Positions 26,945 through 31,450 of a DNA stretch of 64,000 nucleotides are shown here, piece after piece. The stretch covers positions 1-64,000 of the forward strand of contig NZ_JAERLY010000010.1 in the NCBI RefSeq assembly GCF_018256155.1, in the 5' to 3' direction. Numbering within the stretch: position 1 is the first letter of the stretch; the number at the start of each line of letters is the position of its first letter. The notes below the pieces were generated by a model, which was given only the letters and a program-made list of their open reading frames with translations, did not search any database and was not told the origin of the DNA. A program made the position numbers and the translations under genes. The DNA comes from Gluconobacter sp. Dm-62. Its GTDB lineage: Bacteria; Pseudomonadota; Alphaproteobacteria; Acetobacterales; Acetobacteraceae.

Positions 26945-29761
26945 TCAGGATACTGGGACAACCTGAGCCGGAATATCCTGCGGCAGAAGACCAAATTGGT
27001 GTTCAAGCATGGCACGGTACCGTTTCTGTCGGGAAATCTGAGTTTCAGGAAGTGCCAGTCGACTGGCAATCAGACGATGCATGTAAGAAATTTCTTCGAT
27101 ATGGTTACGTCGATTGAGAGTATGCGTTGCTGAATCGGCATGGCGGCGATGAACGTTCAGGGGTTTTGCGATGTAGAGGACTTCCGTATTCTTCTGGAGC
27201 AGGAGTTCTACATAGATGCGCCAGTCACCAGCAACACGCAGGCTACTTAGATCTTTCTGGCATGTATTGATGGCGGTCAGCAAAGGCTCTTTTCTGAAGA
27301 GGGCGCTGCTGACATTGAGCACAAGGTTACGTTCTGACAGGCATCCCCGAAGAAAGCTTTCCCCGGTGAAATGACTGTCATTTTCCAGAAGCAAACCGGC
27401 GCTTTCAGAATAATATGTTCGGTAGGAGGGCGATATGGGAGAACCATTTTCGTCAACAGCCCGACTGTCGGTAAACGCCATGACGATAGCCGGATTTTTT
27501 CGAACCCCAGCCAGAATACGCTCCAGAAAATCCGGCTCGCAGAAATCATCCGCCTCGGCAATCCAGATCCAGTCACCCTGTGCGATATCGAGAGCTTTGT
27601 GCCACTGTCGAAATACGGAACCGGACGGTGTGGCGTTCTCGATGCAGACGATGTCCCGGTTCCAGTCTTTTGCTGTCTGACGGGCTATATCCATACTGTT
27701 ATCGGTTGATGCGTCATCAAGGACGATGATTTCAAAGATCGGTACGGTCTGAGCAAAAATCGACGAGAGCCGACTGCTCATGTAACGGGCGTAGTTATGG
27801 GAAGGAATGACGACGGAAATTCTCGGTAGACCCGGGGCGGCAAGGCGAAGAATTTCCTCAGCATATTTTCTGAAATTGAAGGTGCTCGCTGCTTTGCGTG
27901 CGGCTTTCTGACGATCTCTGTTCGGGCGCTGCACAGACCATGCGGCAAGTTCTTTCGCAGTTCGGGCCATCGCCGCAACGTCCGCAAAAGGGACTACCCG
28001 GCCCAGAAAATGTTTGTCGTTGCTGGTCTGCCTGAGCAGGTCGGGAATTCCTCCTGTTTCGTCAAAAGTCACGCAAGGCAGGCCTGATGCAAGAGCTTCA
28101 AGAATAACGGAAGGATAGGGATCTTCGCGGGATGGCAGGACAAAAACGTCTGCGGATGCCAACCAGGCCGGCACATCTTCAACTCTGCCAGGCATATGGA
28201 ATGTCCCGCTGGCGAGCGCATTTGCCAGCTCGATATGCAGACTGTTTTTCAGAGAAGCATCAATGTCGCCCAGCCAGACGCAATGCACTTTTCCAGACAT
28301 CTTGCGCCACAGCTGGAGAAACAGATCAAATCCTTTCCGCAGGTCCGCATAGCCGGCCCCCATCACAACCAGATCTGTGGGGGCGACGTTCAGCTGCTTT
28401 CGGACCGTCTGTCGTGTTCGGGTAGAGAAAGGGGCGGTGGCGTAAAGGCCCTGTGGCAGAACCGTCAGATTGTCCGAACTCTCGAGATCAAGTTTCTCGG
28501 CTATTGTCCGGGCTGGAACAATGACGCTGCGGGCAAGGATGGAGGCTTCTTTCATCGGGCCCCAAAGGTTTCGGCTTCGAAGAAGGGCCGGCAATTCGTG
28601 AATAAGAAGCAGGAAGCCTATGTCCGCTTCAGCAAGCTGTACTGCAATGGATGATGTCGCAGCGCTATTGACGATAGCGGACTGAAAACCCTGTCTGCGC
28701 AGAAAATTCAGGCGGGAGGTCGTGTCTTTTGATCCTGCAACCAGTATTTCGGTCGGCGCGACGGTACGATAATCGTCGAGGAGAGCGCCCCCCTCAAGGA
28801 GGATAAACTGTATTTCGGTGCCAAAGCATCGTTTCAGGGTACGTCCAATTTCCAGAAGCAGCCGTTGTGCTCCCGCTGGAAATGCATCGTGGCCAATCAG
28901 AAGAAGTCCCGATCGTGAACGGTTTTTCCCAAAACCCGTGCAGGCGCGGGCTGTAGCATTCAGATACGCACTTCCGAAATGCTGGTCCGGTTCTAGATAG
29001 GCACCTTCAGCCCATTCGTTCCAGGCATTGATACAGACAACTGGATCACCAAAAAAAGTCTGTGACTGGGCCTGTTCAATAAGGCCACCGAGCCAGCGCT
29101 CATACAGATCGGGCGTTGATCCGTGCAGGACCAGCCCCTTGCCCTGTCTGCGGGCATCGTTGTCCCATGACGGGGCTGCTGTTCTTATGAGCGGAAATGA
29201 AGTCGCAGGTTGAGCGAGAGCTGTATCGACGACTTCACTATAGTCATAGACCTGACCACTGAATTCATTATCGAACAGCTTGATTTCGTCATTCATGAGG
29301 TTGCAGCCTGAAACAACCTTATGGGGTGGAAATTCAATGGCGCCGTCCAGACCGAAGAGATCCGGGTTTTCGTCTCCGAACGCCTGTCCCATAACAAAAA
29401 GCGGATCCAGTCCATGCCGGCTCCGAAACATGGAACGCCATCGGACAAAGGCCGTAGGAGCATCAGGGATCGTTCCCGGGCGATAGACCATGAGGACCGG
29501 GCGCCCGTCGAAATGAATATAGCGCGGATCGCGCAGATAGCGGGCAAAACAGTCTACAAGGGCTTCGTCATCCTCGGGACGATAGTCCTGTGCAATCAGA
29601 AGATCATCATCCGACCCGTCCCAGCGTCGGCTCCAGTTTTCATTCGCCCACATAAGACAGAACGGAAGGTCGATCTGCGGGTTGGTCAGAAGGATTTCCA
29701 GCGGCTGGTCCAGCAGGCGTTTCCTGTTGAACCAAAAGCGATAAGCGTTGATTTTATTGGG
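26945..29761 (-). pseudogene. three-domain glycosyltransferase (WbsX/GH99-like + GT4 + GT2), 5'-truncated
   Basis: The open frame carries a WbsX-type GH99-like domain (WANENWSRRWDG, INAWNEWAEGAYLEPD), then a GT4 domain (DVFVLPSREDPYPSVILEA, about 490-510 counted from the internal ATG at 29653), then a GT2 domain (ISVVIPSHNYARYMSS, about 625 onward) to a total near 902 aa. Family homology clearly continues upstream of that ATG (WFNRKRLLDQPLEIL) but an in-frame TAA at 29762-29764 cuts it, and no frame further upstream carries the missing part that normally begins the domain. The ATG at 29653 lies in the conserved core, so the start is lost. The GT4 and GT2 parts are intact and could still be made. 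Confidence 0.75.
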
Positions 29762-29868
29762 TTATTTTCCGCTGTGTTGCGTTGGTTTTTCTAGTTGATT
29801 GGAAGCCGCGTAGAAAAAATGAGGGCGTTTTCTTACCTGTGCAACTGAGGTAAAAGACCTCGCAGGTT

Positions 29869-29946
29869 GCGCCTGTAGCTCAATTGGTTAGAGCCGTCCG
29901 CTCATAACGGATTGGTTGGGGGGTTCAAGTCCCTCCGGGCGCACCA
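29869..29946 (+). tRNA. tRNA with CAT anticodon (Ile2 or Met), prophage attachment site
   Basis: A full cloverleaf of 78 bases: acceptor GCGCCTG paired with CGGGCGC, D arm GCTC/GAGC, anticodon stem GTCCG/CGGAT around loop CTCATAA (anticodon CAT), T arm GGGGG/CCCTC around TTCAAGT, and encoded ACCA end. CAT reads Met, or Ile after lysidine modification; the TTGGTTG stretch after the anticodon stem resembles tRNA-Ile2 more than elongator Met, but isotype is not certain. Prophage sequence begins right after its 3' end, so the T arm and acceptor are the likely left attachment core. Confidence 0.95.
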
Positions 29947-29970
29947 TCACGTCATTTGTCGATCAGTTTT

Positions 29971-30591
29971 TTAACACCAAAACCGTTAGTGTTAGAAAAA
30001 CGGCGTTTCTCTAACATCAAACCGGCAACCTGTAAGCGATCCTTACAAGTTGAACTGTCAAGGAATCCTTGACGACTGAACTCTCCGGAAATTCCGGATG
30101 GTTGAACCATTGGGAAATTTCCAAAAGTTCAACCATTGAGCAACCCTCAATAGTTCGTACAAAACCGCCAGAATCTCTGCTGATCTGGCGAGTCGGCAGA
30201 AATGCAGATGGCAGTCGAATTTGTGCCCGTACGGAATGGCATGTGATTGCGGATGCACAATCATGTGGAGGTGACGAAAGTCACCGTGAATATTCACCTA
30301 TTAATATTTAAATGTTCCTGCTTTGTGCAAAAAAGACTCGACTCAACATTTTGAGTACGCGAAATACATTTCAGCACCAGTGCATTAATGGATGGTGAAC
30401 CGGGTTGCACCCCGGCTCACCGTTTAGCACTGACTCGCAAGCATAACGAGTTTGGTACACAGAGGAGCGTTTCGTTTGGAAACACCTTGCAGAACAGAAC
30501 ATTGCTTTGAAGTGTCCGAGTGTCAATGCATCATTGACCGAAAGGGCCATATAAGTGGCTTCGACACAACCGAGGGGGAACGTTCCTCCTC
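29971..30591. ncRNA. candidate large structured RNA: dense array of distinct hairpins
   Basis: About 600 bases after the tRNA hold roughly twenty different inverted repeats, one about every 30 bases. Examples: 12-pair stem with one mismatch at 29990-30016; GTCAAGGA/TCCTTGAC at 30057-30073; TCCGGAA/TTCCGGA at 30084-30098; nested ATGGTTGAAC/GTTCAACCAT at 30098-30136; ATTGAG/CTCAAT at 30135-30151; CGCCAGA/TCTGGCG at 30166-30190; GGTGAC-GAAA-GTCACC at 30270-30285; GTGAATATTCAC at 30286-30297; ACTCAA/TTGAGT at 30341-30356; 10-pair stem at 30394-30421; GTCAATG/CATTGAC at 30522-30538; a 20-base palindrome at 30572-30591. Up to about 30550 I see no credible protein. Location beside a tRNA in a prophage recalls GOLLD and ROOL RNAs. 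G-U evidence for strand is mixed. Confidence 0.45.
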
Positions 30592-30731
30592 ATGAGATCG
30601 CTGTCATCATGCAGCGTATCAAGGCCGGAGAGCACCTCCACCTTATTGCTCGTGACTACTTCCAAAATCAGGGCAGGCTATCTGAGCTGAAAAATGGGAA
30701 ACGCGAGACCTTCAAGGATCGCAGACCATAA
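30555..30731 (+). CDS. 58-aa HTH-like phage protein
   Basis: A short frame from GTG at 30555 (AAAGGG eight bases upstream) to TAA at 30729-30731. The segment IKAGEHLHLIARDYFQNQGR followed by LSELKNGKR has the look of a helix-turn-helix with a recognition helix of the 'NQGRxSExKNGKR' kind seen in small DNA-binding phage and plasmid proteins. An internal ATG at 30609 gives 40 aa and is the alternative start. Its first codons overlap the last palindrome of the hairpin array. A strong intrinsic terminator follows 9 bases after the stop, so this is probably the last gene of a plus-strand unit that includes the array. Confidence 0.55.
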   Translation: MASTQPRGNVPPHEIAVIMQRIKAGEHLHLIARDYFQNQGRLSELKNGKRETFKDRRP

Positions 30732-30739
30732 CATTGCAG

Positions 30740-30768
30740 AATGGCGGGGCTCCGGCTCCGCCATTTTT
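30740..30768 (+). terminator. intrinsic terminator
   Basis: Stem AATGGCGG (30740-30747) with CCGCCATT (30758-30765), a 10-base loop and a five-T run. It closes the plus-strand unit of hairpin array and HTH gene, and separates it from the minus-strand late operon ending at 30845. Confidence 0.8.
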
Positions 30769-30844
30769 ACTTCCCCGCCAAACTCGCCCGCACCTGATCC
30801 CACAGGGCGACATAATACCCGATCCAGCGAACGATTTGGGTCAG

Positions 30845-31450
30845 TCACGAAGCCCGATGTGCTCCAACGAACGGCCGCACCTTACCACCCGCACATATCC
30901 CACCATAACCCGAGATTAGCAGCCCAACATGCGCGGCCAATGCTACCCGATCCGCCTCAATCCGAGCTGCAACCTCCTGCCGCGCGGTATCGTTCTGCCC
31001 GAGCAGTGCTCCTGCATAGCCGACCTGCCGCCCGGCCTCGGCATCAGCCAGGGCGGAGAGCGGCACGAACTGGACCGGGACATGCAGGGTCTGGCCTTTC
31101 GTCCGGCTGGCATCGGCCTGCAAACCAAAAACAGGGGTAAAACTTGAGGCCGATACGGAAAACGAGCCCGACTGACTGAACGTCCCTGACAGATCCATCG
31201 TTACCGGTCCGGCAATCATGGCCACGACCGGGTCAGACGTGCGCTGCGCGCACTGGAGCGCGCGAACGTTGGCGTCGAACCGGGCGGTCTGATCGGCCGT
31301 CCAATGCTGCACGCCCGAGACACTGACGACACCGGCCTGTGTCAGGTCCGATTGCACGCCTGCAATCGCCTGACTGATCGTGACGGGCGCGACGGATCCG
31401 GCCGAACAGGCCGACAGAGCCAGCAGGCCGCAAAGAGTCAGAGCCTTCAT
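30845..31450 (-). CDS. phage lipoprotein of unknown function
   Basis: 201 aa beginning with a short lipoprotein signal (MKALTLCGLLALSACS; lipobox LSAC). The remainder is Ala/Ser/Val-rich with no recognised domain. It is the last gene of the late operon, overlapping the peptidase gene by 4 bases (ATGA). Position at the end of the lysis cassette makes an outer-membrane spanin-like or superinfection role conceivable, but it is longer than usual o-spanins and I cannot assign it. Confidence 0.8.
   Translation of the reverse strand: MKALTLCGLLALSACSAGSVAPVTISQAIAGVQSDLTQAGVVSVSGVQHWTADQTARFDANVRALQCAQRTSDPVVAMIAGPVTMDLSGTFSQSGSFSVSASSFTPVFGLQADASRTKGQTLHVPVQFVPLSALADAEAGRQVGYAGALLGQNDTARQEVAARIEADRVALAAHVGLLISGYGGICAGGKVRPFVGAHRAS

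Follow-up and report, generated by a model that had tools for sequence, protein, structure and literature searches.

The hairpin-rich stretch at positions 29,971 to 30,591 of the window (the whole 64,000-nucleotide stretch of DNA that was analysed) is a composite of two differently built parts, the first of which is an array of five short palindromes set in an exact 26-nt register. Genes of the rhuM family (PF13310) contain palindromes of this type, whose variable core corresponds to the predicted recognition helix of the encoded protein; several array cores are identical to rhuM cores, and such arrays are spread among phages. The units of these arrays are very probably RhuM-type sites, a conclusion drawn from sequence comparison that we hold somewhat less firmly for units C and D of the window. 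We lean towards the view that the array is a DNA decoy of several specificities directed at RhuM proteins, that is, a means of counter-defence.

Two differently built parts beside a tRNA gene

The sequence-only reading had described the stretch as a candidate large structured phage RNA beside an attachment tRNA. Its phage association is borne out by terminase, portal, protease and major head genes on the minus strand, and the tRNA by a tRNA-Met (CAT) gene at 29,869–29,946 on the plus strand, identified by both ARAGORN and Rfam. The attachment role stands only as likely, with no second copy of the tRNA 3′ end found, at up to three mismatches, within the window or from there to the contig end. 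Close to the tRNA is an att-proximal hairpin element (29,954–30,021, no strand assigned) that matches Acetobacter phage phiAP1 at 76.5% over 68 nt (blastn). In phiAP1 approximately 350 nt separate this element (L032, 1308–1375) from the 3′ end of a tRNA-Val-like sequence, which looks like the attP of that phage.

The inverted repeats themselves sit where that reading had placed them, as is evident from direct reading of the sequence (the repeat search and palindrome scan list only the longer inverted repeats of the stretch); its list of example hairpins lacks the units that we call E and D. The comparison of folding energy with dinucleotide shuffles came out as it had anticipated, the real stretch being far lower on both strands: the minimum free energy z-scores are −10.06 on the plus strand and −7.25 on the minus strand for 29,947–30,775 (20 shuffles each), −5.61 and −6.49 for 29,955–30,159 (200 shuffles), and −4.30 and −5.04 for 30,160–30,554 (100 shuffles).

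Is the stretch a large RNA? GOLLD and ROOL RNAs occur in phages, lie beside tRNAs and contain many hairpins, and a structured RNA of this or of a new kind spanning the whole 600 nt would be consistent with the plus-strand z-score of −10.06, with a GAAA-looped hairpin and with a terminator-like hairpin at the end of the stretch. We nevertheless consider this improbable. The Rfam covariance-model search of the window matched the tRNA alone at gathering score, and the suggested kinship with GOLLD and ROOL thus finds no match; of the eight matches at E≤5, four lie on the tRNA itself and four are weak matches elsewhere (E 0.22 to 4), all except the tRNA being under their gathering scores. Mismatches read on the plus strand of the window show no wobble bias for either strand (G.T 3, A.C 5, other 2). 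Furthermore, the array differs from GOLLD and ROOL in being made of short units in register, the number and order of these units vary among its relatives, and the first part of the stretch is explained at the level of DNA. Phage hairpins in series are also seen in the HK022 put RNA, which is described as lying downstream of early promoters and forming two bulged stems in approximately 70 nt (PMC9378689); the array units are near-perfect 25-nt palindromes, and the put RNA was rejected as a counterpart on shape and on these described features. A CRISPR array was rejected as well, in agreement with the sequence-only reading, with zero direct-repeat families in 29,500–31,000.

The second part (30,160–30,554, plus strand) comprises several even-looped hairpins, one of them with a GAAA loop. 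It is followed by a 58-aa ORF (30,555–30,731, plus strand; GEHLHLIARDYFQNQGRLSELKNGKR) and by the terminator-like hairpin, whose place near 30,740 had been read correctly and which has a T run (30,738–30,767, plus strand, by reading and palindrome scan). The ORF is HTH-like by eye, has no Pfam match, and has relatives in 8 of 199 other genomes of the family. The only homologue found for the second part is in one genome of the same genus (L003, 82% across 697 query nt), where the copy of the ORF has an ATG start and changes that are, by eye, mostly synonymous. We suggest that 30,160–30,554 may be a structured leader RNA of the 58-aa ORF that ends at the terminator.

The hairpins had been described as differing from each other. 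This is true of their cores; it is not true of the ends and spacing of five of them. Positions 30,027–30,155 hold five 25-nt palindromes with five different cores, separated by one-base gaps that set the 26-nt register. The units have the form AACY-core6-N5-core6′-RGTT, with the exception of unit A, which ends instead in GACT, and the cores are perfect in E, A, and D and imperfect in B and C. Unit E (30,027–30,051) has the core TGTAAG, which is present in the rhuM set and belongs to the RhuM type with a PQNIT-like helix. Unit A (30,053–30,077) has the core GTCAAG, of the RhuM type KQNVS. In unit B (30,079–30,103) the left half is CTCCGG and the right half reads ATCCGG, of the RhuM type VRTIN. 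The left half of unit C (30,105–30,129) is ATTGGG and the core of unit D (30,131–30,155) is ATTGAG. None of the five is assigned a strand. Perfect 6+5+6 cores starting in 29,941–30,780 number four, compared to 0.16 expected from mononucleotide shuffles. Another perfect palindrome, GTCAAT-GCATC-ATTGAC (30,522–30,538, no strand assigned), has no AAC and GTT ends and is possibly a stray unit.

Palindromes inside rhuM genes and their relation to the encoded helix

Unit B, used as the query against 84,980 species genomes, yielded 100 stretches that span many bacterial phyla and include some archaea. Of these, at least 66 fall within a reading frame resembling rhuM, typically ATIRKFRIVQ.EG; this is a lower bound in a set selected for B, as matches in the opposite orientation are not read by the rule. 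We therefore assembled a rhuM set not selected on B, using family searches and a viral search whose peptide patterns were taken from other parts of the protein (of 109 viral matches the best 80 were used; the genome-search loci are among the matches listed, at most 30 per search). Its 144 HMM matches include 135 with both anchor columns, and these give 127 distinct segments; in an earlier, smaller set the motif was located in only part of 30 loci. A palindrome with a score of at least 8 follows the HTH in 115 of the 127 genes, compared to 5 of 505 equal downstream windows of the same genes and 558 of 7,620 synonymous-codon resamplings, and in 77 of the 127 the real score was reached by none of 60 resamplings. 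The position is fixed: the palindrome center is nucleotide 56 after the HTH histidine codon at both the 5th and the 95th percentile. The remaining 12 genes have no palindrome of this score, which counts against the decoy reading. Perfect 6-bp cores, of 23 kinds, are found in 93 of the 127 genes.

A different account is that the palindrome is a selfish short element, akin to REP and Rickettsia palindromic elements, whose spread has taken it in frame into rhuM genes and also between the genes of phages, with no binding by RhuM. The presence of one 25-bp unit both in coding and in non-coding DNA, and across distant hosts, is what such an element would produce, but a selfish element explains neither the fixed position within rhuM nor the 26-bp register of the arrays. 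In addition, none of the 93 loci has a second perfect copy of the palindrome near rhuM, and the core follows the recognition helix, as described below. We regard a selfish element as quite unlikely.

What determines the core? Among the 93 genes with perfect cores, and with the palindrome-encoded columns excluded, normalised mutual information with the core peaks at columns 50, 45, 49, 46, and 47. To judge from the sequence pattern, these columns are in the recognition-helix region of the RhuM HTH; a search for a solved RhuM structure returned none at E≤1. For example, Lys at the first helix position goes with GT (35 of 35), and the corresponding pairs for the other residues are Val with AT (20 of 23), Pro with TG (9 of 9), and Arg with TG (11 of 12). 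Similarly, the helix motif RTE is paired with CCGG (10 of 10), STR with TGCA (9 of 9), and QNL with CAAG (16 of 17), while QN occurs mostly with xAAG, and ST followed by Glu with TCGG.

The core can also be predicted from the helix in the same 93 genes. With homologues of at least 60% identity barred, the gene with the nearest helix gives the correct core in 57.9 of 93 cases, compared to 13.0 for the rest of the protein and 4.9 by chance, and with homologues of at least 50% barred the corresponding numbers are 25.9, 2.3, and 2.1. At 45% the prediction fails (helix 2.2, rest 1.6, chance 0.5 of 93), which we attribute to the few helix relatives that remain. The identity bar refers to the protein outside the helix, and the prediction test removes the relatedness of the genes only in part.

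Because the variable core follows the protein's own recognition helix, RhuM probably binds the palindrome of its own gene at the level of DNA, and we consider the evidence for this to be strong. The mismatches in the rhuM palindromes (G.T 7, A.C 9, other 18) are not biased towards wobble pairs on the mRNA strand. A DNA-level reading is consequently the better one for 30,027–30,155: palindromes of the same kind are conserved in rhuM coding sequence, wobble bias is absent, and the core varies with a DNA-binding helix.

Core identities and the spread of related arrays

Comparison of the window units with the rhuM cores shows that E and A are exact matches and that B matches in its right half only. 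The 17-nt center of unit A is identical to that of two Acetobacteraceae rhuM palindromes (L262 and L265). The nearest rhuM core to unit C is ATTGGA (L329), and no exact rhuM owner of C and no owner of D was found: a viral scan returned six contigs (L365–L370) with single perfect or near-perfect sites, none of them seen in a rhuM gene, and a scan of 299 genomes matched the window itself alone. More generally, perfect palindromic cores lie 26 nt from unit-B sites at 59 of 346 positions, positions that were not selected, and eight control offsets per B site gave three perfect cores in all; many of the 59 come from related phages. The three core kinds found at this distance (TGTAAG, GTTCGG, and GTCAAG) each occur in the set of 23 rhuM cores (P = 1.8e-7).

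Related arrays occur in other Acetobacteraceae and in phages or genomes of Morganella, Providencia, and Vibrio. Relatives within the family (L003–L008, L016, and L020) contain largely the same unit kinds in other numbers and orders. In IMG/VR, unit B with its joints identified 72 contigs, 70 of them with a GC fraction of 0.34–0.52, and a second palindromic core (at most one mismatch) is exactly 26 nt from B in 60 of the 72; it was not seen in the other 12, and this too counts against the decoy reading. The main array scans were selected on unit B, and the scan for unit A with its joints identified two contigs only. Similar stretches are present in annotated Providencia, Morganella, Proteus, and Vibrio phages. 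The scan rule calls clusters in the phages of Providencia and Morganella and in one of the two Vibrio phages; it calls none in the second Vibrio phage or in that of Proteus. In the Proteus phage, vB_PmiP_Brookers, the similar stretch (L123, 3189–3354) is 40 nt from a phage tRNA-Met gene, and a tRNA-Met gene adjoins the array in the window as well. Outside the rhuM sample there are 66 distinct clusters, and 85 of the 101 gaps among the twelve commonest spacings are exactly 26; block-shuffled sequence gave one cluster in 2.64 Mb, and the real list still contains some chance clusters in coding DNA. A Taylorbacteria contig (L129, 3048–3233) has six distinct palindromes, perhaps seven, between two convergent ORFs; its two adjacent clusters are made of TGTGCA (imperfect), TCCGG, and TGTAAG types and of GTTTCC, AGTAAG, and GTTGCA types. 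Searching 20,395 E. coli genome records with one array (L055) gave no match at E≤1e-3. Finally, 44 nt of the array region (positions 77–120 of the query) match two Neisseria gonorrhoeae records at 86%, in an unannotated place (L127, 4001–4042).

Repetition of unit types within an array was flagged in 5 of 56 typed arrays, and in 2 of 17 distinct combinations compared to 6.7 expected. By eye, the flagged repeats are an artefact of the typing rule, which forces ATTCGG to ATCCGG and GTAAAG to GTCAAG, and we make no strong claim on this point.

The neighbors of the arrays vary, and include the 3′ end of an adenine methylase gene, a DUF2303 gene, the Q region, and the att side. Might the units be arm-type sites of a phage integrase–att complex? 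The array is near a tRNA or tRNA-like 3′ end in the window and in four Acetobacteraceae relatives (L005–L008), and the vB_PmiP_Brookers match has its nearby tRNA-Met gene, but the Providencia, Morganella, and Vibrio units are near methylase or DUF2303 genes, and arm-type sites would leave the identity of the cores with those of rhuM unaccounted for. We consider arm-type sites very improbable.

RhuM and the proposed decoy

We suspect that RhuM is antiviral, as a candidate only: the best PADLOC models of four RhuM proteins are PDC-S05 (three) and PDC-S23 (one, Fic-fused). No RhuM was found in the window's genome at the cut-offs used. In the family, RhuM is present in only 13 of 249 sampled genomes. 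Of 7 array-bearing genomes, 3 have RhuM. The RhuM types in these three genomes are E, B, and E, and the array of each genome contains the matching type, at least in imperfect form; B was selected for in this comparison and E was not, and in-frame stops interrupt one of the three genes. Among 101 matching plasmid records, we inspected three regions (L375–L377), two of which were chosen because hsdM was already visible. In all three, rhuM lies between hsdM and hsdS and contains the palindrome. One of these plasmids also has a Shedu nuclease gene.

From these observations we infer a mechanism in which RhuM would dimerize, bind, and regulate its own gene, and would have an antiviral role that the phage sites counter. 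First, rhuM genes have, in fixed codons, a palindrome whose 6-bp core is matched to the recognition helix of the encoded protein. Second, a RhuM dimer would most likely bind this palindrome and thereby control its own gene and the downstream hsd genes of a shared operon. Third, the phages have one copy each of several such sites in the 26-bp register, and as phage DNA multiplied in an infected cell these would become available to whichever RhuM the host has. RhuM would then be drawn off its normal site or target. If RhuM were purely self-repressing, titration would raise its level and not disarm it; either bound RhuM is the active form, or RhuM has other targets. Also counted against a decoy are units C and D, which have no rhuM owner in the searched sets, the imperfect B and C of the window, the absence of RhuM from the window's genome at the cut-offs used and its rarity in the family, the 4 of 7 array-bearing genomes that lack RhuM, the failure of the helix prediction at the 45% bar, the selection of the main array scans on unit B, and the status of PDC-S05 as a candidate.

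The main rival is that the sites act as sensors or roadblocks, bound RhuM altering phage transcription or quieting the prophage, with each unit serving a different resident RhuM. The evidence for the sites themselves (the rhuM palindromes, the match between helix and core, and the 26-nt cores) is shared by both readings. For 70 of the 72 IMG/VR loci, the placement of the unit-B sites is in keeping with an effect on transcription in that 68 are not within an ORF of at least 100 aa and most are between ORFs of the same direction (29 '--' and 18 '++'); likewise, the window array is upstream of a plus-strand ORF. The varied neighboring genes, however, are better suited to an action that does not depend on position. 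We consider a sensor or roadblock unlikely, and we retain the decoy as our working proposal.

How would such a decoy compare with known systems? Several array cores are equal to palindromes inside the genes of RhuM systems (PDC-S05 and PDC-S23), but the array has no protein gene and instead lines up several rhuM-type sites one after another in non-coding DNA of a phage. Phage copies of CRISPR repeats are known as RNA anti-CRISPRs. By analogy, the phage would here hold a copy of a defense system's own recognition element; unlike RNA anti-CRISPRs, the decoy would consist of DNA palindromes of several specificities directed at a helix-turn-helix protein. In the open-access literature searched we found no description of RhuM palindromes or of phage copies of them, and no occurrence of the exact palindrome strings.

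An unexplained prophage hairpin array is now linked to rhuM, a very widespread and itself unexplained gene family, which gains concrete biochemistry in the form of a predicted intragenic binding site with a recognition code. The arrays suggest a protein-free counter-defense in which a panel of DNA sites alone would suffice. We see an even chance that the broader picture holds, namely that decoy panels in phages of distant hosts are copied from the self-recognition palindromes of a pan-prokaryotic candidate immune gene, that the helix-to-DNA code is readable, and that the panels show which specificities matter. Such a code would allow the specificity of a RhuM protein to be predicted from its helix, and the arrays could be searched for in phage genomes. 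Finally, we note that rhuM-like genes are themselves found in phages and satellite phages, with 40 records at E≤1e-20, including Wolbachia phage WO (H30).
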